A DNA stretch of 64,000 nucleotides, taken from assembly GCA_021732415.1 (NCBI GenBank), contig JAKFVC010000111.1:1-64000 (forward strand). Reading direction: 5' to 3'. Positions 1,569 through 26,741 of the stretch are shown here, in pieces. The notes beneath the pieces are model-generated. The model was not told where the DNA came from, ran no database searches, and saw only the letters and a program-made list of their open reading frames with translations. The translations under genes were made by a program, and so were the position numbers. The stretch is from Planctomycetaceae bacterium (GTDB taxonomy: Bacteria > Planctomycetota > Planctomycetia > Planctomycetales > Planctomycetaceae). Position 1 is the stretch's first letter. Every line of letters begins with the position of its first letter.

Positions 1569-2975
1569 ATGAGCCGACTCCTGCTCTGCGTTATCGTCAG
1601 CTTGTTATTTCAATCTGCAACACTCCTCGCCGCGCCACCAAAAACGGAAGCGAATACGAAGAAACCGGCTGCCAAGCCCCAAGCCAAGCCGGACAAGACG
1701 TCCAAAGAGACCGTCACGTTTCCTCCGCAGTTGCCGGATGGCCAACGATCTCTCACAGAGAGCTCGCCGAAGTTTCTGGACCCGCCCGAGACTCTGCGAG
1801 AGGGAGTGGCCATCGCCAAGACGCCACCCACTGTGGATTTTCTCTACTATCCTGGCCAAGACTATCCCGGCAAACCGTGGTCGAACTGGGGCGATAGCCT
1901 GGCGGTCGGCGGCAAGTACTATGCCTCGATCGGCGACCATCTGGCACCCGCCGGCAATGCGTTTGTGTACGAGTATGATCCGCAGGAAAAGTCCTTTCGG
2001 CAGCTGGCCAATCTGAGGGAACTACTCAATCTCCCCGAGGGACATTATATGCCGGGGAAGATTCACAGCCGATTAGACCTCGGCGATGACGGCTGGCTCT
2101 ATTTCTCTACACATCGAGGGTCCACTAAAGTCACCTCGGACGTCTACCATTACACGGGCGATTGGATCGTGCGTTGTCACCCAGGCACGGGCAAAGCCGA
2201 AGTCGTCGCCCGCGGACCTGTTTCCAAGCACTGCATCCCGACGAGCGTGCTCGATCCGAAGCGCCTGATTTACTACGGTGGCACTGCCGCCGGCGATGAT
2301 GCACCGGCGAAAGGTATTCAGTTCGTGGCGTATGACGTCAATGCAAAAAAGGTTCTCTACACAGGTCCCGAAGGCCCCTACCGCTATCTGATTTTTGCCG
2401 CGTCGACAGGCCGCGTTTACTACCTGGCCGGTGAAGGCGAAAAGGGACCGCTGATGCGATTTGATCCGGCAGTCAGCCAGGTCCCCGTCAAGATCGACGG
2501 TGAGATCGGTCTACGCTCGGCGACTCAAGAAACACCGCAAGGGATTGTCTATACGATCTCGTCCGGTCAAGGCAAGGGCGATGCCGTGCTGTGGTCATTC
2601 GATACGAAAACCGAGAAACCACAACTGATCGGCCCCGCCTCAGTCGGCAGCCAGGCCTATGTGGCCTCATTAGATGCCGACCCCACGGGCCGCTATCTGT
2701 ACTATGTCCCGGGTGCTCATGGCGGTAGCGAACAGGACCACGCAGCCGTCGTACAATACGACGTTCAGAAGCGAACGAAGAAAGTCATCGCCTGCCTGGG
2801 CCCGTATTATCAAGAGAAACTCGGCTGCACCTTAAAGGGGACCTACAGCACCGCAGTCGACCCCAAGGGTGATAAACTCTATATCACATGGAACGCCAGC
2901 CGATCCAGCAAGGTCTGGGATTGTTGTGCGTTGACTGTAATTCATATCCCCGAAAGTGAACGCCCACTGCAATAA
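1569..2975 (+). CDS. Exported protein of unknown function, probably beta-propeller-like
   Basis: The 468-residue product starts with a clear signal peptide (MSRLLLCVIVSLLFQSATLLAA) followed by a Lys/Pro/Ala-rich linker to about residue 50. The remainder has repeated aromatic/glycine strands such as YYPGQDYPGKPWSNWG, VYEYDPQEKSF, RYLYYVPGAHGG and DKLYITWN. These look like blades of a propeller that reads as a sequence of reporter-like strands, but I do not recognise a named family or a catalytic motif. The start is supported by an AGGGA ribosome-binding site at 1556-1560. The gap before it (1487-1568) contains a single arm resembling the family E palindrome. The following redoxin/copper monooxygenase gene begins 35 bases downstream, so the two are probably cotranscribed. 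Confidence 0.8.
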   Translation: MSRLLLCVIVSLLFQSATLLAAPPKTEANTKKPAAKPQAKPDKTSKETVTFPPQLPDGQRSLTESSPKFLDPPETLREGVAIAKTPPTVDFLYYPGQDYPGKPWSNWGDSLAVGGKYYASIGDHLAPAGNAFVYEYDPQEKSFRQLANLRELLNLPEGHYMPGKIHSRLDLGDDGWLYFSTHRGSTKVTSDVYHYTGDWIVRCHPGTGKAEVVARGPVSKHCIPTSVLDPKRLIYYGGTAAGDDAPAKGIQFVAYDVNAKKVLYTGPEGPYRYLIFAASTGRVYYLAGEGEKGPLMRFDPAVSQVPVKIDGEIGLRSATQETPQGIVYTISSGQGKGDAVLWSFDTKTEKPQLIGPASVGSQAYVASLDADPTGRYLYYVPGAHGGSEQDHAAVVQYDVQKRTKKVIACLGPYYQEKLGCTLKGTYSTAVDPKGDKLYITWNASRSSKVWDCCALTVIHIPESERPLQ

Positions 2976-3010
2976 GAGTGGCCGACCGCACTCGTTGCGA
3001 GGAATGCTTT

Positions 3011-4801
3011 ATGATTTGTTTTCGGCGACTTCTGATTGCCTTACTCGCCGTCTTGGGGCCAGCCCCTCTGTGGGCAGCAGATGCGGCGCGACCGCCCATC
3101 GGTACGGAGATCAAGTCGCTGCGTTTCAAAGATATCCGCTATCTGCCGCGGACTCTCGATGACCTGGGAGAACACAAGGCGACTGTCATCGTCTTTACAA
3201 ATACGACCTGCCCACTCGTGCAGAAATACTGGCCGAAGCTGAAGCGGCTTGACGCTGAGTATTCCAGCCAGCAGGTGCAATTTCTGAGTATCAATTCGAG
3301 TGCCGGCGACGAGATCGCCGAGATCGCTCAGCAAGCAATTGATTTTGGTGTCGAGTTCCCTGTCGTACGAGATACGGATGGGGGATGTGCCAAGGCATTG
3401 GGAGTCGAACGGACGCCAGAGGCCGTCATCTTGGACAAGGGGCGTCGCCTGCGCTACCGCGGACGCATCGACGATCAACATCGGCAGGGTGGTTCGCGAA
3501 CTGATGTCACTGAGGACGATCTCGTGCGGGCTCTGCACGAAGTGCTCAACGGAAGCGAGGTCACGCGGCCGGAGACCGCCGTCGATGGTTGCAAGCTGAC
3601 TCTGCCAGCACCGCCGAAGTTGGAAACTCCAGTCACTTATTACGATCACATCGCACCACTGATACAGCGGCACTGCGTCGAGTGTCACCGAACTCATGGC
3701 GACGCTCCGTTCGCGTTGGTAACACTGGAGGATGCCGTATCGCACTCCGAGATGATCGCCGAGGTCGTCGCGGACCGGCGGATGCCTCCCTGGTACGGCA
3801 GTCGGCGGCAACATTTCTTTAATGAACGGGGACTCACGTCTGCGGAGCGTGATCAGATCGTCGCCTGGAACTTAACCGGGCGTACGCCGGGCGATGCCGC
3901 CAAGGCCGTCCCCGCACGCAAATTCACCGACGGGCAATGGGAAATCGGCGAACCCGACATCGTGACGACCGCCGTGTTCCCGCACAAACTGCCGGCTGAC
4001 GGGTTTGTCGATTACAAGTATGTCCTGCTGCCGTATGTGTTCACTCAGGATACGTGGATCTCGGCGGCGGAGATCTCACCGTCAAACCCGGCGACCGTCC
4101 ATCATTGCAACATGGCCTACATGACACTGGGCGAAGAATTCCACGAACGCAACTTCATCACCGGCCGAGTCCCCGGCGGATCGGCGATGATCCTTGATGA
4201 GGGTGTCGCACTCAAGATTCCCAAGAATTCTGTGGTCGGATTGCAGATCCATTACACGACGACAGGCAAGATCGAATCAAACCGGATGTCAGTCGGGTTC
4301 CGCTTTCCGCGTGATGTCGTGCGGCGAGAATTGCACCACGCTCAGATCTCAAGATCGCGATTCGAAATCCCGCCAGGCGCGGCCGCCTTTCCAGTTCAAG
4401 CCACGCAAACCCTGCCCGCCAACGCCACAGGTATCGGCATGTTTGCCCACATGCATCTGCGAGGCAAGGACATGACCTTCCGAGCCCTGTATCCCGACGG
4501 CCAGCAGGAAACATTGTTGTCGATTCCCAACTACCATTACGACTGGCAGCACGCCTATCGCTGGAAACCGGATACAAAGAAGTTCCCCGAGGGGACGAAA
4601 ATCGAGGTCACCGCGCACTTCGATAACTCGCGCTTCAACCCCTTCAATCCCGATTCGACAATGGTGGTGAAGACTGGCCCGCAAACCATCCAGGAGATGA
4701 TGTTTGGGTTCTTTTTCTACACGCACGACGGTGAAGACTTGAACCTGACAGTCGATCCCAAGACGGGACATCGGTTGGTCCCTGCGAAGCAATCGAAGTA
4801 G
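3011..4801 (+). CDS. Exported redoxin / cytochrome-like / copper type II monooxygenase fusion
   Basis: I place the start at ATG 3011, which has a GAGGA site at 2999-3003 and gives a proper signal peptide (MICFRRLLIALLAVLG...). A GTG 33 bases upstream would add 11 residues in front of it. Three domains follow. First is a thioredoxin/AhpC-TSA fold (TNTTCPLVQKYWPKL), which keeps one Cys instead of CxxC. Next is a short segment with a c-type haem site, HCVECH, at roughly residues 220-225. Last is a region like the copper type II ascorbate-dependent monooxygenases, with copper-ligand candidates VHHCN, QIHYTTTG and FAHMHLRGKDM. The arrangement is known in planctomycetes; substrate unknown. It probably acts in the periplasm with electrons delivered through the haem segment (inference). 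Confidence 0.85.
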   Translation: MICFRRLLIALLAVLGPAPLWAADAARPPIGTEIKSLRFKDIRYLPRTLDDLGEHKATVIVFTNTTCPLVQKYWPKLKRLDAEYSSQQVQFLSINSSAGDEIAEIAQQAIDFGVEFPVVRDTDGGCAKALGVERTPEAVILDKGRRLRYRGRIDDQHRQGGSRTDVTEDDLVRALHEVLNGSEVTRPETAVDGCKLTLPAPPKLETPVTYYDHIAPLIQRHCVECHRTHGDAPFALVTLEDAVSHSEMIAEVVADRRMPPWYGSRRQHFFNERGLTSAERDQIVAWNLTGRTPGDAAKAVPARKFTDGQWEIGEPDIVTTAVFPHKLPADGFVDYKYVLLPYVFTQDTWISAAEISPSNPATVHHCNMAYMTLGEEFHERNFITGRVPGGSAMILDEGVALKIPKNSVVGLQIHYTTTGKIESNRMSVGFRFPRDVVRRELHHAQISRSRFEIPPGAAAFPVQATQTLPANATGIGMFAHMHLRGKDMTFRALYPDGQQETLLSIPNYHYDWQHAYRWKPDTKKFPEGTKIEVTAHFDNSRFNPFNPDSTMVVKTGPQTIQEMMFGFFFYTHDGEDLNLTVDPKTGHRLVPAKQSK

Positions 4802-4871
4802 GAAGAGCCTTTAAGATGGCCGCCCCGACCGTGACATCTCAGAGTGACCGCACGCGGGAAATCCACTGTCG

Positions 4872-4932
4872 CCGAAGTCGCCAAGACTTCGGAAACCATG
4901 GCGAATGCGGTCAGAACTCGTGGCGAGTTCTG
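4872..4932. repeat. Two short tandem hairpins in the 4802-5125 intergenic gap
   Basis: Two perfect stem-loops lie in a row. Bases 4872-4879 pair with 4885-4892 (8 bp, CCGAAGTC) and 4912-4920 pair with 4924-4932 (9 bp, CAGAACTCG). Neither is followed by a T tract, so they are not ordinary terminators. The rest of this 324-base gap shows no gene; reading frames inside it have no coding character. Confidence 0.6.
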
Positions 4933-5125
4933 CGACCAGCACCTACGGGTTCGCTCATTATTACTATTAATTCGCGAAACTTCTGATCAGCGATTGACAG
5001 GGGCCGGTTTTCCCATTGAAATCTGTCACGCGCCTGTTCACTTCTGGCAGCCTGCACCGGGCTCTGCGCCGAGTCACAAGTTGGGGGCAGAATGAGTGCA
5101 TTTTCTTCGTTTGGGGCCAAATCGT

Positions 5126-5803
5126 ATGTCGATCTCGGTACGTTGCACGTGCGGTAAAAAGTATCAGCTTAAGAATGACGCGGCGGGTAAGAAGTTCAAA
5201 TGTAAGGAATGCTCGGAGGTCGTCAAAGTCCCCGATGAGCAGATTGACGATCTGGAGGATGTTGACGACGAGGAAGATGAATGGGACGACGGGGAGGTGA
5301 AGCTGCCCGTTCGCAAGAAGAAGAAAAAGAAGGGTTCCAAGGCGGCCGCGATGGCGACGGGCATCGCCTGGGAGGCGGCCAAAGGGGCGCCGGGTCTCTT
5401 CGTGCGGATTGCAGGAATCTTCGTCGGAATCGTTGGTGCCCCGTGTGCGTTGTGGGCACTGTCGTTCACCGGATCCAGCTTGATCGCCACTTTCACGATG
5501 GGGAGCGGAATCGCTTTCATGATGTTCTGCTGGGGCTGTTTCATGACCGTGACCTGCTTGCTCGGCGTCAGGGCGAGCTTCGGATTTGGTCTCAAAGTTT
5601 CCGGTGAGTACATCTGGGAAGGAACGGGCAGCGTCATCGTGGGAATGATGATTGTTGGATTTTCGATCATTTGTATGGCAGTGACAGTTGTCGTGGTGAT
5701 GGGCGCCATACGAAATGCCAGAGGGGGATTTGCAGGGCCCAATTGGGCGCCGCCCCCCGCCGTCCGTCCATTCGGGCGTCCCGGGCAGCCAGCGGGGTTC
5801 TGA
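5126..5803 (+). CDS. Zinc-ribbon membrane protein of unknown function
   Basis: The start is taken at ATG 5126 (MSISVRCTCGKKY), where a zinc ribbon begins at once: Cys7 and Cys9, then Cys26 and Cys29 (CKEC). A GTG at 5096 is possible but would only add an unstructured leader. An acidic stretch (DDLEDVDDEEDEWDDGE) and a Lys-rich patch follow, then three to four hydrophobic segments (about residues 100-125, 130-160 and 175-205) and a Pro-rich tail. Ribbon proteins of this kind are common in planctomycetes and usually annotated as hypothetical. It shares the ribbon-plus-membrane plan with the gene at 7542-8774, though the sequences otherwise differ. Confidence 0.75.
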   Translation: MSISVRCTCGKKYQLKNDAAGKKFKCKECSEVVKVPDEQIDDLEDVDDEEDEWDDGEVKLPVRKKKKKKGSKAAAMATGIAWEAAKGAPGLFVRIAGIFVGIVGAPCALWALSFTGSSLIATFTMGSGIAFMMFCWGCFMTVTCLLGVRASFGFGLKVSGEYIWEGTGSVIVGMMIVGFSIICMAVTVVVVMGAIRNARGGFAGPNWAPPPAVRPFGRPGQPAGF

Positions 5804-6090
5804 CAACGATGGGCCACGCACCCTGTCTCGCGGGGACAATCATCGGCATCGCTCGAAAGCCGTAGCACGAACTCTTCAAAATCTACGTTCGAACAAATCA
5901 GCACGCAACGAGTTGCTTTGGGAGAGCCATGTACCGCGTTGAACCGTTCGCGAAAAAGTAGACGGCCGGGGCGGCCTTCCTACGGACTGGTTTGAAAAGT
6001 TCGTGCATTGGTGGTTGCGGTGCGTTAAACTAGGATCGATGAATTACGCGTTCGCGGACTCTGATCGATGTGATTGAGGTTTATTGAAAA

Positions 6091-7497
6091 ATGCCTCCCA
6101 TGAATCGTTGGATTGAACAGTTTCAACGCCGCGTGCTGCTGGGAGAATTTCTCCACCGGGCAGCCGATGCGCTGGCGATTTTTCTGTTTACGTTTGGGAC
6201 GATTGTCCTGACGGTGCGCCTGGCCGTGCCGCAGTTGTGGCCACACGTGTTGTGGTTGGCGGCCGGTGCGGTGCCCGTGGCGGCGGGCGCCTGGTGGCTG
6301 GCTCGGAAACGGCAGCAGTCGCGGCGCGAGACCATCGCCATGCTGGATCAGAAGTTGGCAGCGGGTGGGTTGTTGATGACTCTCGCGGAACGGCCCGATG
6401 AGGAATGGTCGACTCATCTGCCGACCATTCACACGTTGTGGCGGCAGGCCCTGCCCCGCATCTTCCCGAAACGATTTACGTCTTACCTCGCGATGCCCCT
6501 GCTGTTTGCCGTGGCGGCTTGCTTTGTGCCGTTGCGCGAAGCGAAGTCGACACCGATCGTCCCACAGGCTGTGGCGAAGAATGCAACGGAGCAGTTGGAA
6601 GAGTTGAAGGAATCGCTCGACCAGGCCGAGATCCTGAAAGAGGAAGAGAAGAAGGAATTTGAGGAAGAAGTTGCCAAGCTGCAGGAGGAGACTCAGGACA
6701 CGCCGCTCACCCATGAGAACTGGGAGACGGTCGATGCATTGACCGAACGCTTACAACTGCGCGTGGATGATGCAGCGGCTCTGAATTCGAAGTTCCAGGA
6801 AGCGGTAGCTCAACTGGCTAAGGCGGCCGGTGGGGACGGAGAGCAATTGTCCCCGGAAGCTCAGGAGCAGTTGGAGCGTGACGTCGCCGAGGCCATCGAA
6901 CAGTTGGCCAAGAAGGGAGCGAGCTCGGAGGAGATCGGTCCCGGGAAACCGGGTGCTGGGAGTAAGTCGATGGCAGAACGACTCCAGAAATTGATGAAGG
7001 ACGGCAAGGCCCGGCTGCCCACCGATCCCAAGGAACGCCAGGAGTTGCTCGACCAGTTGAAAGAGGAGCTCGAAAAGGAAAAGAAAAAGCTGTCCGAGCT
7101 GCGAAAGAAGTGCAAGGCGTGTTCGAAGTGCAACGGACAAGGTGAAGGGGAATGCGAGGGCGGCGGGCTGTCAGATCAGCCGGGCGCCAACAAGGATGGG
7201 AAGCCAGGCCGCGGCGGTATTAATCGTGGTCGAGGTGACGCGGACATGTCGTATGGCGACGAGGCCAGCGAGAACGGCGTGAAGTTTAAAGAGACGATCC
7301 TGCCGCCGGGATTCGCCGATAAACCCAAGGATGAGGTCGTGGGAACTCAACTGATTTCCCCGAACGAGGACCCCGCGGCGACCGCCGCCAAGGGGGCTCA
7401 GCGGGCGATTGATCCTTCGTCGGGTGATGCGACGTGGAGCCGGAAACTCAGCCCGAAACATCGCAATGTCGTGCGGAAGTTTTTTGACGCGAAGTAG
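6091..7497 (+). CDS. Coiled-coil membrane protein with Cys cluster, unknown function
   Basis: The product has 468 residues. Two hydrophobic segments lie near the N-terminus (about 22-45 and 49-68) and a third at about 130-148. Long Glu/Lys/Gln-rich coiled coils occupy roughly 150-240 and 300-340. From residue 341 comes a cysteine cluster, CKACSKCNGQGEGECEGG, reminiscent of a DnaJ-type Cx2CxGxG zinc motif, and then a Gly-rich stretch. Near the C-terminus the motif KLSPKHRNVVRKFFDAK resembles the tail of planctomycete proteins encoded beside MoxR/DUF58/DUF4175-type membrane complexes. That link is from memory of family organisation and no such partner is present here. A GAGG at 6075-6078 supports the start. 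Function unknown. Confidence 0.75.
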   Translation: MPPMNRWIEQFQRRVLLGEFLHRAADALAIFLFTFGTIVLTVRLAVPQLWPHVLWLAAGAVPVAAGAWWLARKRQQSRRETIAMLDQKLAAGGLLMTLAERPDEEWSTHLPTIHTLWRQALPRIFPKRFTSYLAMPLLFAVAACFVPLREAKSTPIVPQAVAKNATEQLEELKESLDQAEILKEEEKKEFEEEVAKLQEETQDTPLTHENWETVDALTERLQLRVDDAAALNSKFQEAVAQLAKAAGGDGEQLSPEAQEQLERDVAEAIEQLAKKGASSEEIGPGKPGAGSKSMAERLQKLMKDGKARLPTDPKERQELLDQLKEELEKEKKKLSELRKKCKACSKCNGQGEGECEGGGLSDQPGANKDGKPGRGGINRGRGDADMSYGDEASENGVKFKETILPPGFADKPKDEVVGTQLISPNEDPAATAAKGAQRAIDPSSGDATWSRKLSPKHRNVVRKFFDAK

Positions 7498-18797: not shown

Positions 18798-20834
18798 TTA
18801 CAGAATCGACCGGATCTTGCCGAGGAACTCTTTGTTCGACGCATACTTTTGCAGGATGCGAGTCAGTTGTTCCATGCCCTCGACGGGGCTCAGGGACAAC
18901 AGGCTGCGACGCAGCATCGTCACACCTTCCAGAGTTTCGGGTGAGAGGATCTTTTCCTCGCGTCGCGTGCCGGACTGCTGGATGTCGATCGACGGCCAGA
19001 TACGGCGGTCGGCCAGATTGCGGCTGAGCACCATTTCCATGTTGCCCGTGCCTTTGAACTCTTGAAAAATCACATCGTCCATGCGGCTGCCGGTTTCGAT
19101 CAGGGCGGTCGCTGCAATGGTCAGTGAGCCACCTTCATCGAACAGACGAGCGGTACCGAACATCTTCTTGGGGATGTCCAACGCCTTGACGTCCAAACCA
19201 CCCGACGTCGTCCGGCCACTGCTGCCCACCCACTTGTTGAAGGCGCGGGCCGTACGCGTAATTGAATCGAGCAGAATGAAGACCTCGCCACCTGATTCGG
19301 CGATCCGCTTGCCGCGTTCGATAATCAGTTGCGAGATGCGGACGTGGCTTTCGACATCGCGATCCATCGAGGACGCGATGACTTCACCACGCACGTTGCG
19401 TCGCATTTCGGTGACTTCTTCGGGCCGCTCGTCGATGAGCAACACGATCAAGTACATCTCCGGATGATTCTTGCTGACCGAGTTCGCAATGTCCTGCAGG
19501 AGCATCGTCTTACCGGTTCGCGGCGGAGCCACGATCAGGGCACGTTGTCCCTTGCCGATCGGACAAAGCAAATCCATGACGCGCATCGTGATCGGCATCG
19601 GACCCGTTTCGAGCTTGATTTGCTCGTGCGGGTTGATGGCGGTCAGCGTGTCGAACGTCTTGATCTTCTGGTACTCTTCGACCGTCCGGCCTTCGACTGA
19701 TTCAACACTCTTCAGACGCGGCCCTTGTCCCTTGGGACCAGGAATCGCTTCACCCTTAATCAACACGCCTTCACGCAGATTGCAGCGTTCGATCAACGTG
19801 CCCGACACAAACGCGTCGGTCTTGGATGAAGCGTAGTTGTTAGAAGGATCTCGCAGGAAGCCGTAGCCCTTGGGATGCAGTTCCAGGACGCCCGACACTT
19901 CCGTGCCGGGGATATCGGCCATGGCCTGTTCGGACATCGTGTTGCGGTCACGGAAGTTATCACGCGGACCACCGTTGTTGCCGCCCGAACGATTGCTGTC
20001 CCGGTTGTAGCCACGATCGCGTTGCTGTCCACCGGCGTTGCCGCCGCCCCCCCCACCTTGATTGGGGAATCGCCCACCGCCGCCACTACGTTGCGGGCGA
20101 CCGCGCTGCACGTTCGAGCCACCACCATTATTCATGTGACGTCCACCACCACCGCCACCCTGCGAATTCGATCGCGGCGGATTCTGGCGTGGAGCGCCTG
20201 TATTACTCTGTGCGTTGGGTGGGCCACCTTCGACACGGCCATTGCGAGAACGACGGCGACGGCGACGGCGGCGTTGGAATTCGCCACCTTCTCCGTTGTC
20301 GACACCCCCTTCGCCACCCTCGCCCCCTTCGACAAATGAACCTTCTTCGCCGCCGTCACCTTGGTTGTCGCCACCATGAGTGTCGCCAAAGTCGCCGCGA
20401 CCCTCATTGGAACGGTCGTTTTCGTAGCGATCAGTACGGTTCTCGGTGCGGCCCTCTGAGCGTTCTGCTCGGGCCGGAGGTGCTTCTTCCACCACGGGCG
20501 CCGGTCGTTCACGCGGCGTTTCGACAGACGCTGCACGCGGACGGCGTTCGCGGACGGGACGTTCCGGTCGCTCAGGACGTTCTTCAACGGCGGGAGGCAG
20601 GAATTCTTCGGGATCAAATCCGAACGAATCAGAGACTTGTTCCGGTTCCGGGCGGCGGGCGGGAGCCCGGCGTCGCGTCGGCCGGGGGGCCGCTTCGGGC
20701 TCGGGAGTCGAAGCGACGGGTTCTACCCGTTCAACTTCTGCCGGAGCCGCATCCGTTTTCTTCTTGACGGTACGCCGCCGTCGTGGCGGGGCCTCGGGAT
20801 CGCTGTCCGTCGAACCGGAGCTATTCACTGCCAT
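18798..20834 (-). CDS. rho: Transcription termination factor Rho with long Arg/Gly-rich N-terminal extension
   Basis: The start is placed at ATG 20834 (MAVNSSGSTDSDPEAPP); an upstream ATG would add 29 residues unlike Rho. The product has about 678 residues, against about 420 for E. coli Rho. Residues 1 to about 300 are low-complexity, with Arg/Pro/Glu first, then a Gly/Arg/Asn-rich stretch. The conserved core follows: RNA-binding OB fold (VSGVLELHPKGYGFLRDP), Walker A APPRTGKT, ERPEEVTEMRR, and the C-terminal Q/R-loop region with GGSLTIAATALIETGSRMDD and GTGNMEMVLSR. It is an RNA helicase that ends transcription at C-rich sites. The extension is probably disordered and adds RNA binding (inference). 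Confidence 0.97.
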   Translation of the reverse strand: MAVNSSGSTDSDPEAPPRRRRTVKKKTDAAPAEVERVEPVASTPEPEAAPRPTRRRAPARRPEPEQVSDSFGFDPEEFLPPAVEERPERPERPVRERRPRAASVETPRERPAPVVEEAPPARAERSEGRTENRTDRYENDRSNEGRGDFGDTHGGDNQGDGGEEGSFVEGGEGGEGGVDNGEGGEFQRRRRRRRRSRNGRVEGGPPNAQSNTGAPRQNPPRSNSQGGGGGGRHMNNGGGSNVQRGRPQRSGGGGRFPNQGGGGGGNAGGQQRDRGYNRDSNRSGGNNGGPRDNFRDRNTMSEQAMADIPGTEVSGVLELHPKGYGFLRDPSNNYASSKTDAFVSGTLIERCNLREGVLIKGEAIPGPKGQGPRLKSVESVEGRTVEEYQKIKTFDTLTAINPHEQIKLETGPMPITMRVMDLLCPIGKGQRALIVAPPRTGKTMLLQDIANSVSKNHPEMYLIVLLIDERPEEVTEMRRNVRGEVIASSMDRDVESHVRISQLIIERGKRIAESGGEVFILLDSITRTARAFNKWVGSSGRTTSGGLDVKALDIPKKMFGTARLFDEGGSLTIAATALIETGSRMDDVIFQEFKGTGNMEMVLSRNLADRRIWPSIDIQQSGTRREEKILSPETLEGVTMLRRSLLSLSPVEGMEQLTRILQKYASNKEFLGKIRSIL

Positions 20835-22295
20835 GCTGTTCTTCCAACTCAGAAACGAAAATCCAAACACAAAACAAACAGAACTCGGCACATCCGTGAC
20901 GGATACTGACAGTATCCGCACCGACGTTGCCTGCTAGGCTGCAACGATGATCTCTGCGCCGATCTCCGGCACCAAGTCGCAGCCCACATACTACTGAGCC
21001 AGCACTCAGGACTTCACAACGCCGGCTGCAAAACCTCTTCCAGAAAACCCGACTTCCAGCAGCGCGATGGCAACTCAGACTGAGCGTTATCGCACCAGTG
21101 CACAGGTTTTGAGACAGGCTAACCAGCTAAGGGTGAAATCCACTCCTGCGGCCAAAAAAGTACACACGAACTTTACTCGTCGTCAGCACCTGGCTGCACG
21201 ACAAACCGGGTCTCGTAGCGTCGATACCCCATCACAGCGGGCCTATCAGAGGGTCAATTGCAAATCGGCTTCCGAAACGCATCGAACTCAAATATTGCCC
21301 CGAATTGCTCAACGTTTTCCCGAATGAATCTCTTCGCTGGGGAATCCCTACTCTGGCTCGAGCCAACGTCTACTGGGGTGATTCATCAGAACCACAATTT
21401 ACCGGGGTGGCTCAGGAGAACCACTATGTCTATTGCCACTCGGTACACCGCGACTCGTGCCAGCGAGTGGCCCGATATCATCGGGAGCGACCTGGGGTTC
21501 GTGACCAGACAAACCCCAATCGCCAACTTGCTTCAGAAACCCTTAGTCTTAATCAGGGTCGTGACACTGCAGCAGTTTCATCAGTTACGACAGCAGGTTC
21601 TATACCCACTTTTCGCAAATGACGCACCGCAGATAGAAATGCTCGCCAAGAGATTCGATTCCGGTGACAAATTCTCTGCCGGTGATAAAAATCACAGCAC
21701 CGCACGACCGGTTTCAAATCCAACGTCTCCCACATTTCTGACAGTCTTAAGGGGTCCTTAAAACCTGAGGGATCCGCGAGCAGCCACTTTGCTTATCGTG
21801 TTCGCGTCGATTCGGAACGATTACCGGATGACTCTTCAAGTGGAAAACGCCACACACTTATTGGGCAGCTAGCAAAAAACGGCAAAACGAGCCGCTTAAG
21901 ATTTAGCTCACTTACCCGTGCTGAGCCTTGAAGAGTATCGCTCAAACCGTCCCCAATTGGGCCGCGTTCAGCGCAATCACTAGTCCTATCATATCTTTTG
22001 ACGAGAATGTGTCAATTCATTCCGGACGGCTAGCAACATTTTTCGACTGGATTCTGTTCTAGTATCGGCTTCCCGGCACTGTTAAGCTGAAGACTCTGTA
22101 ACGGATATGGCGGTTTTCGAGCGAATTTCCACCTGTGATCAGGGCCATTCGCTCCGAGTAAGCTGGACAATCTTGTCCGGCTGTTCGACCCGCCGCGCGA
22201 CGGACAGGATTGTCCGTCCTACAAAAAGACCTCGCCAGCAGCCCCGCGACGACTCATCACTCGAAATTGACATCAACTGACCGGGCCCTTCGCGT
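20835..22295. other. 1.46-kb intergenic stretch upstream of rho and the amidohydrolase gene
   Basis: Long non-coding gap between divergent genes. Frames within it (for example 21067-21327 and 21258-21761 on the plus strand) show no domain and no clear codon bias. I found no tRNA, tmRNA, RNase P or SRP signature. The half nearest rho (20835-21000) may be its 5' leader, as rho genes in other bacteria have long autoregulatory leaders. A family M palindrome occupies 22165-22215. Confidence 0.55.
22165..22215. repeat. Inverted repeat, family M (GGACAATCTTGTCCG)
   Basis: Arms 22165-22179 and 22201-22215, 15 bp with one mismatch, loop 21 bases rich in CG. Each arm is also self-complementary (GGACAA...TTGTCC). 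The sequence just after the right arm, GTCCTAC, matches the ends of families C and D. It is about 80 bases upstream of the amidohydrolase start. Confidence 0.7.
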
Positions 22296-25200
22296 ATGAC
22301 CACGCCTCTCGAGCACAATCTCTCGCCATCAACCCTAAAACTCAAGCCTGCTGCGGACGCTTTGCATCCACCGACCAAGCGTTTTCGGGGTCGTATCAAC
22401 TCCTATTATACGCTCGCGGCGCTGTGTGCGGGGTTGATTTGCGGAATTGACCTGATTGGCCATGTCGAACCCGCGCGCGCCGCAGAGTTCGAGCCCCGGG
22501 CTGTCGCCATCACCCAGGCCACGATCGTCACGGCCCCCGGTCAGCAGATTGAAAACGGGCGCGTCATCCTGCGAGATGGTCTGATTGTCGCCGTGGGAGC
22601 CGATATTCCTATTCCCGCAGACGCCGAAGTCATCGAAGTTCCAGGACACGTGGTCTACGCCGGTTTTATCGATGCCGCCACGTCAGCACTGCTGAACCCG
22701 GATCAGGCCGCACAGCCGGCCGCCCCGGCTCCTATCGACGTCAGCCGTTACGCCCTGGCTGCCACACGGGTCGACAACCGCAAGAGCCTGACACCCGAAT
22801 ACGAGGCCGCCGAGCACCTGAGGCTCGACAACGACACCTTGGAGAAACGCCGGCAACTCGGCTTCACGACTCTGCACATCGTCCCCAGCGGCCGATTGGC
22901 GAGCGGTCGCGGCACACTGATCACGACGCGCGGCGTCACGCTGCGAGAATGCCTGTTGCAATCTCCGACCATGTCGCAGTTCCGAGTCTTCGGGCCGCGT
23001 GAAGAAGGCTACCCGCACACCCTGATGGGCGGCACGGCACATCTGCGTCAGATCTTTCTGGATGCTCGCCGCTATGCCCAACAACAGACGCTGTTCAAAG
23101 CCGGCATCCCACAGATTCCGCGGCCGTTGCAAGATGCGGTTCTCGAGGGACTGCAGCCGGTCATCACCAAGCAACTCCCAGTCTGGTTTACGGCCAACAC
23201 GCGCGACGAGATCGAGCGGGCTCTCAATTTCGCCACCGAACAAGAACTCGGCCTGACCTTGTGGGGCGGTCGAGACGCCGAACGTTCGCTCGCTCGCCTG
23301 CAGGAAAAACAGGTCAGCGTGGTGCTCACTCTGGACTACGGCGACGAGCCCAAAGCCGAACCGAAACCAGTACCCGACAAACTCACAGCCGATCTCCAGG
23401 ATCCGCTTCGGTCACTCGAAGACGTCCGCGACCGCTGGCGATTGCAAGTGGCCGGGCCGAAAGCGCTCAAGGCCGCTGGCCTGAAATTGGCCGCCGGTTC
23501 GCAAGGTTTGAATGAGCCTGCCGACTTTTTCAAAGGGCTGCGGCAGATCATCCAAGCCGGTCTCCCGCGAGACGCCGCCCTGGCCGCAATCACCACCGAA
23601 GCCGCAACGATTCTCGGTCAGGAACAACGACTCGGATCAATCACGCCGGGCAAACTGGGTCACGTCGTCGTCCTGACCGGTCCCTTCGATGATGAACGCA
23701 GCCAGGTCCGATTCCTGTTCGTCGACGGCAAGAAATATGAATACAAGAAGGACGCTCAGCCCGTCCCGAAGGACTCCGGCTCACCGGGACTCGAACTGGC
23801 AGGCCGCTGGAAGCTCGACATCGAAGCGGCCGACGGGCCCGTCCATTGCGACCTCGTCCTCACGCAAACCGGGACGCGGTTGAATGGCACATTCAAGAGC
23901 CCCCAGGGAGACGGCAAGCTCACCAGCGGCAAGGTCGAAAAGGATAAGGCCGAGTGGGTCGTGTCGATCGGCGCCGGCGACCGTGAGATCGAACTGAAGT
24001 TCTCGGTCCAGGGGCTGATGGGGACACCGCCGCAACTGAAGGGAATCCTCAAATCGGCCTTCGGTGCGCAGACGAACTTCACCGCCCAGCGTGAGATGTC
24101 CCCTCCCATGCCGCCGAACGCGGTCGAGATCAAAGGGATCGAACCCGACGACGCCAAACCTGCCACCGCGACAAAAGCTGGGATCACCGAGTTGCCGGTG
24201 GAACTCGACGCCGATCGCCTCAAGCGAACCCTGCCAACGGGCGGCAACGTCTTCATTCAGAAAGCCACGGTATTAAATGGTAAGGGAGAAACACTCCCCG
24301 AGACCTCCATCTTCATCAAGGCGGGCAAGATTGCGGCGATTGGCAAGGACCTGACGCCAGAAGCGGGCGTCGTGGTCATTGATGCCGCGGGCAAATTTGT
24401 GATGCCGGGGATCATTGATACCCACAGTCACATCATGATTGGCGATGGACTGGATAGCGTGAATGAAGCCACGCTCTCCATCGTCCCGGAAGTCCGCGTG
24501 AAAGATGCTGTTTCGACCAGCGATGTCTCGGCGTATCGAGCACTCGCGGGCGGTGTCACAACCGCCAGGCTGTTCCACGGTTCCGCCAACGTGATTGGCG
24601 GACAGGATGCTGTCGTCAAGATGAAGTATGGCGAGCCGGCATCCAAACAAATCCTGGCCGACGCCCCGCAAGGGGTGAAGTTTGCCCTAGGTGAAAACGT
24701 CAAGTTCCAGCGAAACCGCTTCCCCAACACGCGTATGGGGGTCGAAGCAACCCTCAACCGAGCCTTCATGGAAGCGCTCGATTACCGCCGCCAGTGGCTG
24801 GAATACCAACAAGCCATCCAAGCCGCGCCCGACAAGGCCACACAACTGCTGCCACCCCGCCGCGACCTGCGGTTGGAAGCCTTGATGGACATCGTGAACC
24901 AAACGAAATTTATTCACAGCCATTGCTACCGGGCTGATGAAATCCTGATGCTGCTACGAGTGGCCACCGGACTGGGTGTCCGCGTCTGGTCGCTGCAGCA
25001 TGTTCTGGAAGGCTACAAAGTCGCTCCCGAAATTGCGGCTCACGGAGCCAGTTGCAGTACGTTCGCCGACTGGTGGGCGTATAAGGTCGAGGCGTATGAC
25101 GCCACCCCCTTCAATGCCGCCCTGCTCCACCAGGCGGGGATCAACACGGTCGTCAAAAGCGACGATTGGGAACTGATCCGGCATCTCTATCTCGAAGCGG

Positions 25201-26741
25201 CGAAAACCATCCGCTACGGCGGGCTGGCCCCCGAGCACGCCCTGCAAACAATTACGTTGAATCCTGCCAAAGAACTCGGTCTGCAGGACCGCATCGGCTC
25301 ACTGGAAGTCGGCAAAGACGGGGATGTGGCGATCTTCAACGGACATCCGCTGCATGCCTTTTCCCGATGCGAGATGACACTTGTCGAAGGCGAAGTCTAC
25401 TTCAACCGGGCCGCTCAACCGACCGCGATGACCCCCGCCGGTGCTGCCCGGCAACAGGCTTCGGCCAGCTTGCCGATCTCGCCTCCAGAGATCCGCGCTC
25501 GCGTCGTCGATTTCACCGAAGCCGCTAATGGCCAATATGCACTGGTGGGTGCCACGGTCCATCCGGTGGATGCCGCCGACATTGATAAAGGCACCATCTT
25601 AATTGCGGGTGGCAAGATCACCGCTCTCGGCAAAGATCTGCCCATCCCCGCTGATACCAAGACGCTTGACCTCACGGGACTGCATCTCTATCCCGGAATC
25701 ATCGACGCGGGCACGACGCTCGGGCTGATTGAGATTGGCAAGGTCTCGGAGACTCACGACTACGCCGAAGCGGGCCAGTTCCAACCTGACTTGCGGTCGG
25801 GAGTCGCCGTGAATCCTGATTCCGAATTGATCCCTGTGGCACGTGCGGGAGGCATCACCACAGTGCTGGCAATTCCCTCCGGCGGCACCATCTCCGGGCA
25901 GGCCTCGGCGGTGAAATTGGGAGGCTGGACGGTCCCCGACATGCTGCTCGACCTGGAAGTCGGCCTGGTGATCCGCTGGCCGGGGGCACTCCACAAACCG
26001 ACCATCAAAAAGCCGGACTGGGAAGAAGCTCAAAAGAAACGTCAGGAACAACTCGACAATCTCAAAGAGTTCCTCAAACAGGGCCGGCTCTATAACAAGC
26101 TGAAGACCGATGCGGTGGCGGCGAAGCAATCTCCCCCACTGGCCGACCCGCGCTACGATGCCTTGAAACCGTATCTCGCAGGCGAGAAGCCCATCTTCAT
26201 TGAAGCCAACCAGCGTCAGGAAATTGCCGAAGTTCTACTGTTCGCTGAGGAAGAAAAGCTGAAGATTGTTCTGCTGGGAGGGACTGACGCCTGGAAGCTG
26301 GCGGGTGAACTGAAGACCCGCAACGTGCCGGTCATAATCGGTCCCGTGATGACACGTCCCACCGCGGATTACGACCCGTTCGATGCGCCTTATGCGAACC
26401 CCGGACGACTGTTCGAAGCCGGCATCAATTTCTGTATTCGCTCAGATGACGCCTCGAACAGCCGCAATACGACATTTGAAGCGGCCCAGGCGGTGGCGTA
26501 TGGCTTGCCCGCTGAGGAAGGGCTGAAAAGCATCACGCTGAACGCCGCCAAGATCTTGGGAATCGACAAGCAAGTCGGGTCGCTGACTGCGGGCAAGCTG
26601 GCCCACATCGTGATCGCTGACGGCAATCCCCTGTTGCAGACCACGCAGATTAAGGGAACGTTCGTGGACGGCAGGCCCTATAACGCGGAAACGCGCCAGA
26701 CGCGGTTCTACGAAAAGTATCGCCAGCGGTTGAAGAAGTAG
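22296..26741 (+). CDS. Exported three-domain amidohydrolase
   Basis: The 1481-residue product has a signal-like hydrophobic stretch at about residues 38-65 (SYYTLAALCAGLICGIDLIGH). Three imidazolonepropionase-type amidohydrolase domains follow. The first (about 65-480) lacks the HxH, reading YAGFIDAATSALL. The second (about 650-1045) has an intact GIIDTHSHI (His710, His712), a later HSHCYRADE metal loop and KSDDWELI. The third (about 1080-1480) reads PGIIDAGTTLGLI and has no HxH. A beta-rich segment of about 100 residues (near 495-610, WKLDIEAADGPVHCDLVLTQ) separates domains 1 and 2. Only the middle domain should be catalytic. Its TAG stop (26739-26741) lies in a family A palindrome. Substrate unknown. 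Confidence 0.88.
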   Translation: MTTPLEHNLSPSTLKLKPAADALHPPTKRFRGRINSYYTLAALCAGLICGIDLIGHVEPARAAEFEPRAVAITQATIVTAPGQQIENGRVILRDGLIVAVGADIPIPADAEVIEVPGHVVYAGFIDAATSALLNPDQAAQPAAPAPIDVSRYALAATRVDNRKSLTPEYEAAEHLRLDNDTLEKRRQLGFTTLHIVPSGRLASGRGTLITTRGVTLRECLLQSPTMSQFRVFGPREEGYPHTLMGGTAHLRQIFLDARRYAQQQTLFKAGIPQIPRPLQDAVLEGLQPVITKQLPVWFTANTRDEIERALNFATEQELGLTLWGGRDAERSLARLQEKQVSVVLTLDYGDEPKAEPKPVPDKLTADLQDPLRSLEDVRDRWRLQVAGPKALKAAGLKLAAGSQGLNEPADFFKGLRQIIQAGLPRDAALAAITTEAATILGQEQRLGSITPGKLGHVVVLTGPFDDERSQVRFLFVDGKKYEYKKDAQPVPKDSGSPGLELAGRWKLDIEAADGPVHCDLVLTQTGTRLNGTFKSPQGDGKLTSGKVEKDKAEWVVSIGAGDREIELKFSVQGLMGTPPQLKGILKSAFGAQTNFTAQREMSPPMPPNAVEIKGIEPDDAKPATATKAGITELPVELDADRLKRTLPTGGNVFIQKATVLNGKGETLPETSIFIKAGKIAAIGKDLTPEAGVVVIDAAGKFVMPGIIDTHSHIMIGDGLDSVNEATLSIVPEVRVKDAVSTSDVSAYRALAGGVTTARLFHGSANVIGGQDAVVKMKYGEPASKQILADAPQGVKFALGENVKFQRNRFPNTRMGVEATLNRAFMEALDYRRQWLEYQQAIQAAPDKATQLLPPRRDLRLEALMDIVNQTKFIHSHCYRADEILMLLRVATGLGVRVWSLQHVLEGYKVAPEIAAHGASCSTFADWWAYKVEAYDATPFNAALLHQAGINTVVKSDDWELIRHLYLEAAKTIRYGGLAPEHALQTITLNPAKELGLQDRIGSLEVGKDGDVAIFNGHPLHAFSRCEMTLVEGEVYFNRAAQPTAMTPAGAARQQASASLPISPPEIRARVVDFTEAANGQYALVGATVHPVDAADIDKGTILIAGGKITALGKDLPIPADTKTLDLTGLHLYPGIIDAGTTLGLIEIGKVSETHDYAEAGQFQPDLRSGVAVNPDSELIPVARAGGITTVLAIPSGGTISGQASAVKLGGWTVPDMLLDLEVGLVIRWPGALHKPTIKKPDWEEAQKKRQEQLDNLKEFLKQGRLYNKLKTDAVAAKQSPPLADPRYDALKPYLAGEKPIFIEANQRQEIAEVLLFAEEEKLKIVLLGGTDAWKLAGELKTRNVPVIIGPVMTRPTADYDPFDAPYANPGRLFEAGINFCIRSDDASNSRNTTFEAAQAVAYGLPAEEGLKSITLNAAKILGIDKQVGSLTAGKLAHIVIADGNPLLQTTQIKGTFVDGRPYNAETRQTRFYEKYRQRLKK

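Follow-up and report, generated by a model that had tools for sequence, protein, structure and literature searches.

Introduction

The amidohydrolase superfamily, whose fold dihydroorotase shares, is known to include pseudoenzyme subunits that occur singly, as the inactive dihydroorotase does. Here we analyze a gene at positions 22296..26741 (+) of a 64,000-nucleotide stretch of DNA from a Planctomycetaceae bacterium (contig JAKFVC010000111.1 of assembly GCA_021732415.1, positions 1 to 64,000; hereafter the window), which encodes a protein of 1481 amino acids (aa) with three amidohydrolase domains, termed N, M and C from the amino terminus. Comparison with related genomes revealed that an enzyme accompanied by two pseudoenzyme relatives is a real, ancient and widespread combination, and that the window carries its fused form. 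The source genome (G000) comprises 9.87 Mb in 350 contigs.

The nearest precedent is an inactive dihydroorotase that is needed for transcarbamoylase assembly (PMC4581275), within the aspartate transcarbamoylase dodecamer, and the likeness would extend to the role of an inactive partner only. The active partner there is an unrelated transcarbamoylase; in contrast, the active partner here is a paralogous amidohydrolase, the inactive copies number two and the proteins look exported. The metallo bile salt hydrolases of Bilophila are also large secreted amidohydrolases, and removal of their extra C-terminal domain costs about four-fold activity (PMC13081902). However, these are YtcJ-type enzymes (Amidohydro_3) with one catalytic domain, and the accessible portion of the report does not describe the extra domain as a dead amidohydrolase.

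The closest solved relative of M is a Thermotoga maritima amidohydrolase (PDB 3ooq, E 1.7e-47), in which the HxH and GEN motifs lie intact in the aligned residues; all six metal ligands are present in M. Whereas the 3ooq protein is a single domain of 396 aa with no partner domains, M does not stand alone, C being present in 98/98 and 84/84 M-bearing genomes of two phylum samples. A literature search under TM0814, which we take to be the locus name of the Thermotoga protein, found no published function for it. Nor did we find an earlier description of the trio in the literature searched, most subscription journals falling outside the search.

A paralogous pair in planctomycetes and Bacteroidota (dM-dC) resembles the trio in that an active amidohydrolase has a degenerate one fused to it or next to it. 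It differs in having no N, in that both halves fall in separate clades, and in that 5/6 cases carry Leu, not Gly, in the fifth ligand column. Three dM-dC paralogues of about 900 aa (L203, L206 and L217) bear a Cys-Cys pair near the C-terminus (CCLSF, CCAAF and CCLGF, respectively).

Domain architecture of the fused protein

The protein is encoded by a single open reading frame (ORF) to which relatives can be aligned end to end, and these keep the frame at full length, with 90 and 93% identity in two congeneric genomes. Because relatives keep the frame and the trio recurs across phyla, the triple-domain ORF is not a product of chance or a frame artefact. Pfam Amidohydro_1 (PF01979) matches three stretches of the protein (E 5.4e-37, best at residues 701–1022), and membership is clear at 128.3 bits against a curated cut-off of 25. 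Feature coordinates given below refer to the + strand of the window unless indicated otherwise.

A preliminary description, made from the letters of the window, had proposed three amidohydrolase domains with HxH in the middle one alone, and both points hold. The domain-start motifs lie at residues 72 (ITQATIVTAPG), 653 (FIQKATVLNGKG) and 1082 (ALVGATVHPV). The N domain covers residues 65–493 (22488..23774), with boundaries taken from the profile match after removal of a 5-residue offset, the M domain residues 647–1039 (24234..25412) and the C domain residues 1079–1479 (25530..26732). In M, the motif IIDTHSHIMI at residue 706 provides His710 and His712 (24423..24431), and the expected HxH sites of the outer domains read FIDAATSALL in N (from residue 124; 22665..22694) and IIDAGTTLGL in C (from residue 1135; 25698..25727), as had been quoted. 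The TIM barrel and composite β-sandwich are assigned in M and C by predicted models and VIA-align, and in N they follow only from its profile homology and secondary structure. N and C belong to the fold and lack the metal ligand set.

Metal ligands are complete in M alone

To compare the active sites across the family, six alignment columns were taken from M (His710, His712, Glu800, His876, His902 and Asp956), which we take to be the metal ligands from the general pattern of the superfamily. The comparison covers 172 M, 163 N and 155 C domains, typed by profile in agreement with their position; domains with less than 80% profile coverage were dropped beforehand, as were truncated loci, which were replaced by full-length versions. 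For the ligand counts, near copies (>95% identity) were removed, leaving 163 M, 159 N and 151 C domains. All six ligands are present in 163/163 M, 0/159 N and 0/151 C domains, and no outer domain keeps more than two (N) or three (C) of the six. The column of His902 is occupied by Gly in 136/159 N and 144/151 C domains. The C domain of the window protein retains the ligand Asp without the full set. All six ligands are also present in four single-domain relatives, which belong to Bacillota and Actinomycetota. The earlier proposal of one catalytic and two degenerate domains is therefore borne out by the ligand counts and extends to the entire family.

Gene layouts and co-occurrence

The trio occurs in all four possible layouts: NMC as in the window, NM + C, N + MC and N + M + C, with the order N, M, C wherever the three stand together. 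Planctomycetes have the fused NMC, N + M-C and N-M + C forms. From a scan of named genomes, in which the total number of loci is at least 80, the best 80 were kept; these come from Planctomycetota, Bacteroidota, Verrucomicrobiota, Acidobacteriota, Armatimonadota, several candidate phyla, and some Beta- and Gammaproteobacteria. They comprise 65 loci with NM + C, 2 with N + MC, 3 with M + C that are cut by the contig start, and 10 with NM but no C in the flank, one of which ended at the contig end; a C gene was found elsewhere in the genome for 10/10 of these. Among twelve Bacteroidota regions, ten picked because M lay in a short ORF and two picked as paralogues, 10 have separate N, M and C genes with HxH in M only and 2 are paralogues of M and C (M' + C').

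Co-occurrence was assessed in 197 planctomycete genomes (completeness ≥95) and 148 Bacteroidota genomes. In planctomycetes, with cut-offs chosen after viewing the lists (E up to 1e-140 for M and up to 1e-80 for C), M, C and N are all found in the identical 98/197 genomes. The M scores drop from 8e-145 to 2e-106. The gap for C is narrow: after 7e-106 comes a copy truncated at a contig end (3.4e-87), and paralogues begin at 2.8e-78. The weakest N (3.6e-49, in G356) overlaps the cross-matches of C and was accepted for its position upstream of M. In Bacteroidota, M and C are found in the identical 84/148 genomes; the M scores drop from 9e-141 to 2e-99, and the weakest C reaches 6e-105.

Placed by eye in the 98 planctomycetes, M and C are fused in 33, adjacent in 61, distant in 3 and interrupted by the end of a contig in 1. 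Distant copies on the same contig were seen in planctomycetes (G224, G279 and G287) and in Bacteroidota (G428 and G444). The triple fusion had been called uncommon; this does not apply to planctomycetes, in which 33/98 M-bearing genomes have it, but agrees with the best 80 named-genome loci, of which none is fully fused.

Selection, descent and predicted structure

In seven within-genus pairs, the ratio of nonsynonymous to synonymous substitution rates (dN/dS; NG86) is 0.033–0.091 for N, 0.043–0.060 for C and 0.019–0.037 for M wherever dS could be estimated. N and C are under purifying selection.

In a quick maximum-likelihood tree of 117 domains, whose reading is limited by long branches and midpoint rooting, N and M are each set apart by a branch (SH-aLRT 99), and C falls into two neighboring groups. 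The active single-domain relatives stand beside M, and a further branch (SH-aLRT 96) has all degenerate domains (N, C and dC) on the same side. Two independent ligand losses, with that in the dM-dC paralogue separate, were considered at first, but because N, C and dC share one side of a branch, a single ancient loss fits as well. The grouping may also come from long-branch attraction.

The AlphaFold models of N-M (pLDDT 89.8, pTM 0.85) and M-C (pLDDT 93.5, pTM 0.91) place both domains confidently in each case. VIA-align superimposes the C model on 3ooq with Z 47.9 and an rmsd of 2.3 over 371 aligned residues, and the M model with Z 40.7 and an rmsd of 1.9 over 372. The solved-chain matches listed were of M or C, so that N and the small β domain described below were barely probed there.

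Loop 1 of M and C

The loop that follows the HxH motif differs between M and C. In the active single-domain relatives (4/4), 16 residues separate the second His from the NE motif, and an Asp stands three residues before the Glu. In M, loop 1 has a median of 8 residues; the Glu is kept in 172/172 domains, whereas the preceding Asp is kept in only 4/172, with Gly in 149. In C, the loop has 16–17 residues, and in the window protein (25725..25775) it contains the conserved Glu1146, Asp1155 and Glu1158, found in 149/155, 155/155 and 145/155 C domains, respectively. Two sphingomonad pairs have a longer loop in M and Ala at the Glu position of C. Since C keeps the ancestral Asp1155 that nearly all M have lost, C may help to complete the active site of M, and the reciprocal loop pattern in the alignments points to such aid.

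Additional features and gene neighborhood

Beyond the family-wide degeneracy, two features add to the preliminary description. A hydrophobic segment at residues 36–64 (22401..22487), which ends near ARAAEF and is similar in most relatives, is a probable signal peptide. A signal-like stretch precedes the first domain in 89/96 NM, 87/94 C, 21/22 N, 19/21 MC and 2/6 M genes, and the protein is probably exported. N and M are separated by the second feature, a small all-β domain of some 100 aa (residues 501–603; 23796..24104), identified by profile and by strands in the model. The C-terminal tail RQTRFYEKYRQRLKK (26694..26738) forms a helix in the model; a loose pattern for it, defined after inspection of the tails, matches 159/170 C domains, and a narrow version matched 106/170.

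No NCBIfam equivalog cut-off was reached among the 25 of 73 matches listed, the best scoring 133.7 bits against 500. Gene neighbors as a guide to the substrate led nowhere, with no common Pfam family. In a Qipengyuania plasmid (L117), the M and C genes (2111–3709 and 3815–6600) follow a gene for a peptide MFS transporter, a single case that gives a weak hint of peptide substrates. In the window, the upstream ORF on the opposite strand (18798..20921, −) has a long, charged, Gly-rich N-terminal extension and presumably encodes the transcription terminator Rho. Elsewhere, the N-M frame of a Hymenobacter volaticus plasmid (L116 3152–6202) is split into several ORFs with the C frame mostly open. 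Four adjoining ORFs at L220 (G052:C4:105000-112000) match the degenerate C profile, none with HxH, and possibly form a cluster of dead amidohydrolases. A partial M-like match lies within a 2531-aa open frame of a Bacteroidota genome (G393:C2:1912785-1913540).

Discussion

The fused protein is most probably a single-chain, three-part metallo-amidohydrolase, likely exported, in which M is catalytic and N and C are obligate pseudoenzyme subunits. Bacteria of many phyla retain one live and two dead copies in a fixed order, whether fused or encoded separately, which points to a need for the dead copies as partner subunits. The computed basis of this reading is the ligand pattern, the fixed order, fission and fusion, co-occurrence, purifying selection and confident two-domain models. 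The preliminary description had supposed that the outer copies may hold the enzyme in a shape, and such a partner role would fit co-occurrence, fusion and fission, purifying selection and the predicted models. Its other suggestion was that the outer copies bind substrates, as they conceivably may.

In the proposed mechanism, M would be the sole catalytic unit, using the metal site of its TIM barrel (HxH, Glu, His, His and Asp) to hydrolyze the C–N bond of a small amide. N and C would be pseudoenzyme subunits of ancient paralogous origin, retained as obligate partners after loss of the metal site, packing against M and holding or shaping it, and C probably supplies residues or a wall beside the M pocket. 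By inference, the enzyme would be exported and active, and the split forms would associate into a physical complex. A more specific proposal, which we advance tentatively and consider rather unlikely, is a split active site: M would carry the metals without half of loop 1 and its Asp, C would insert the full ancestral loop into the M pocket so that neither is complete alone, and N would be a second, structural dead subunit.

Several observations weigh against the obligate-partner reading or its details. Two sphingomonad plasmid loci have M and a degenerate C with no N in the flanks, and N is accordingly not universal. No shared neighbor names a substrate, no Pfam family occurring in more than 5 of the 112 flanking ORFs that were scanned of the 132 nearest, from 82 loci. 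The retention of both M and C on different contigs in 8/84 Bacteroidota genomes would favor the reading, but in draft genomes this need not mean distance. The Fisher values for co-occurrence (8.8e-59 in planctomycetes and 1.6e-43 in Bacteroidota) are too small because the sampled genomes are related by descent, and co-occurrence could stem from a shared pathway instead of contact. For dN/dS, dS was saturated in many pairs. With regard to loop 1, that of the window M (24432..24467, ending at Glu724) has 11 residues, longer than is typical, with an Asp one place further off, which makes the case for help from C slightly weaker for this protein. In addition, dC keeps the loop though its partner dM has it too (5/6 Asp, 6/6 Glu), so a loop kept in a dead domain is no proof of help in trans. 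A free-form DxxE/D count, looser than the column count, gives 64/132 M, 133/135 C, 4/4 single-domain, 6/6 dM and 5/6 dC, and renders the contrast between M and C less sharp.

Among the alternatives, substrate capture fares best, although we consider it doubtful: N and C would have no structural role and would bind the substrate, or a polymer bearing it, and pass it to M. Dead enzymes often retain ligand pockets, and C retains the barrel-mouth loop with its Asp1155 and Glu1158. However, the corresponding loop shows little conservation in N, with Asp, His, Tyr and Ala mixed in the NE column and lengths from 11 to 48.

A looser association is improbable, in which N, M and C would serve one pathway as separate proteins that need no contact, their genes moving as a group and now and then fusing. 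Co-occurrence and adjacency are equally typical of pathway partners, but the three share a homologous amidohydrolase fold, and the metal site is missing from two of them. Moreover, M and C are both kept even when far apart, all four gene layouts exist and the models place neighboring domains confidently.

Still less probable is catalysis by the outer domains through a shifted metal site or metal-free chemistry. Metal ligands regained at other positions, which by the preliminary description would count against its proposal, were not seen at the sequence level. In C, His1089 (139/155), His1130 (113/155), Cys1380 and acidic residues are conserved, the two His and the Cys in more than 50% of domains; none of these three stands at a ligand position, and His1130 is not special to C, since M shares it (His in 112/172). 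No outer domain keeps the six-ligand set, and in N no column holds a His or a Cys in more than 50% of domains. Finally, that N and C are functionless, decaying remnants of a tandem duplication is hardly credible: the loss of the catalytic ligands as a set and a rate of evolution above that of M would agree with it, but their dN/dS is far below 1, they are kept across phyla, and C occurs in every M-bearing genome of both phylum samples.

With a live amidohydrolase and two dead paralogues in four states of fusion, the family offers a natural series for asking when and why dead copies become indispensable. Many proteins annotated as 'amidohydrolase family protein' may be subunits that are unable to work alone, which matters for their expression in substrate screens.

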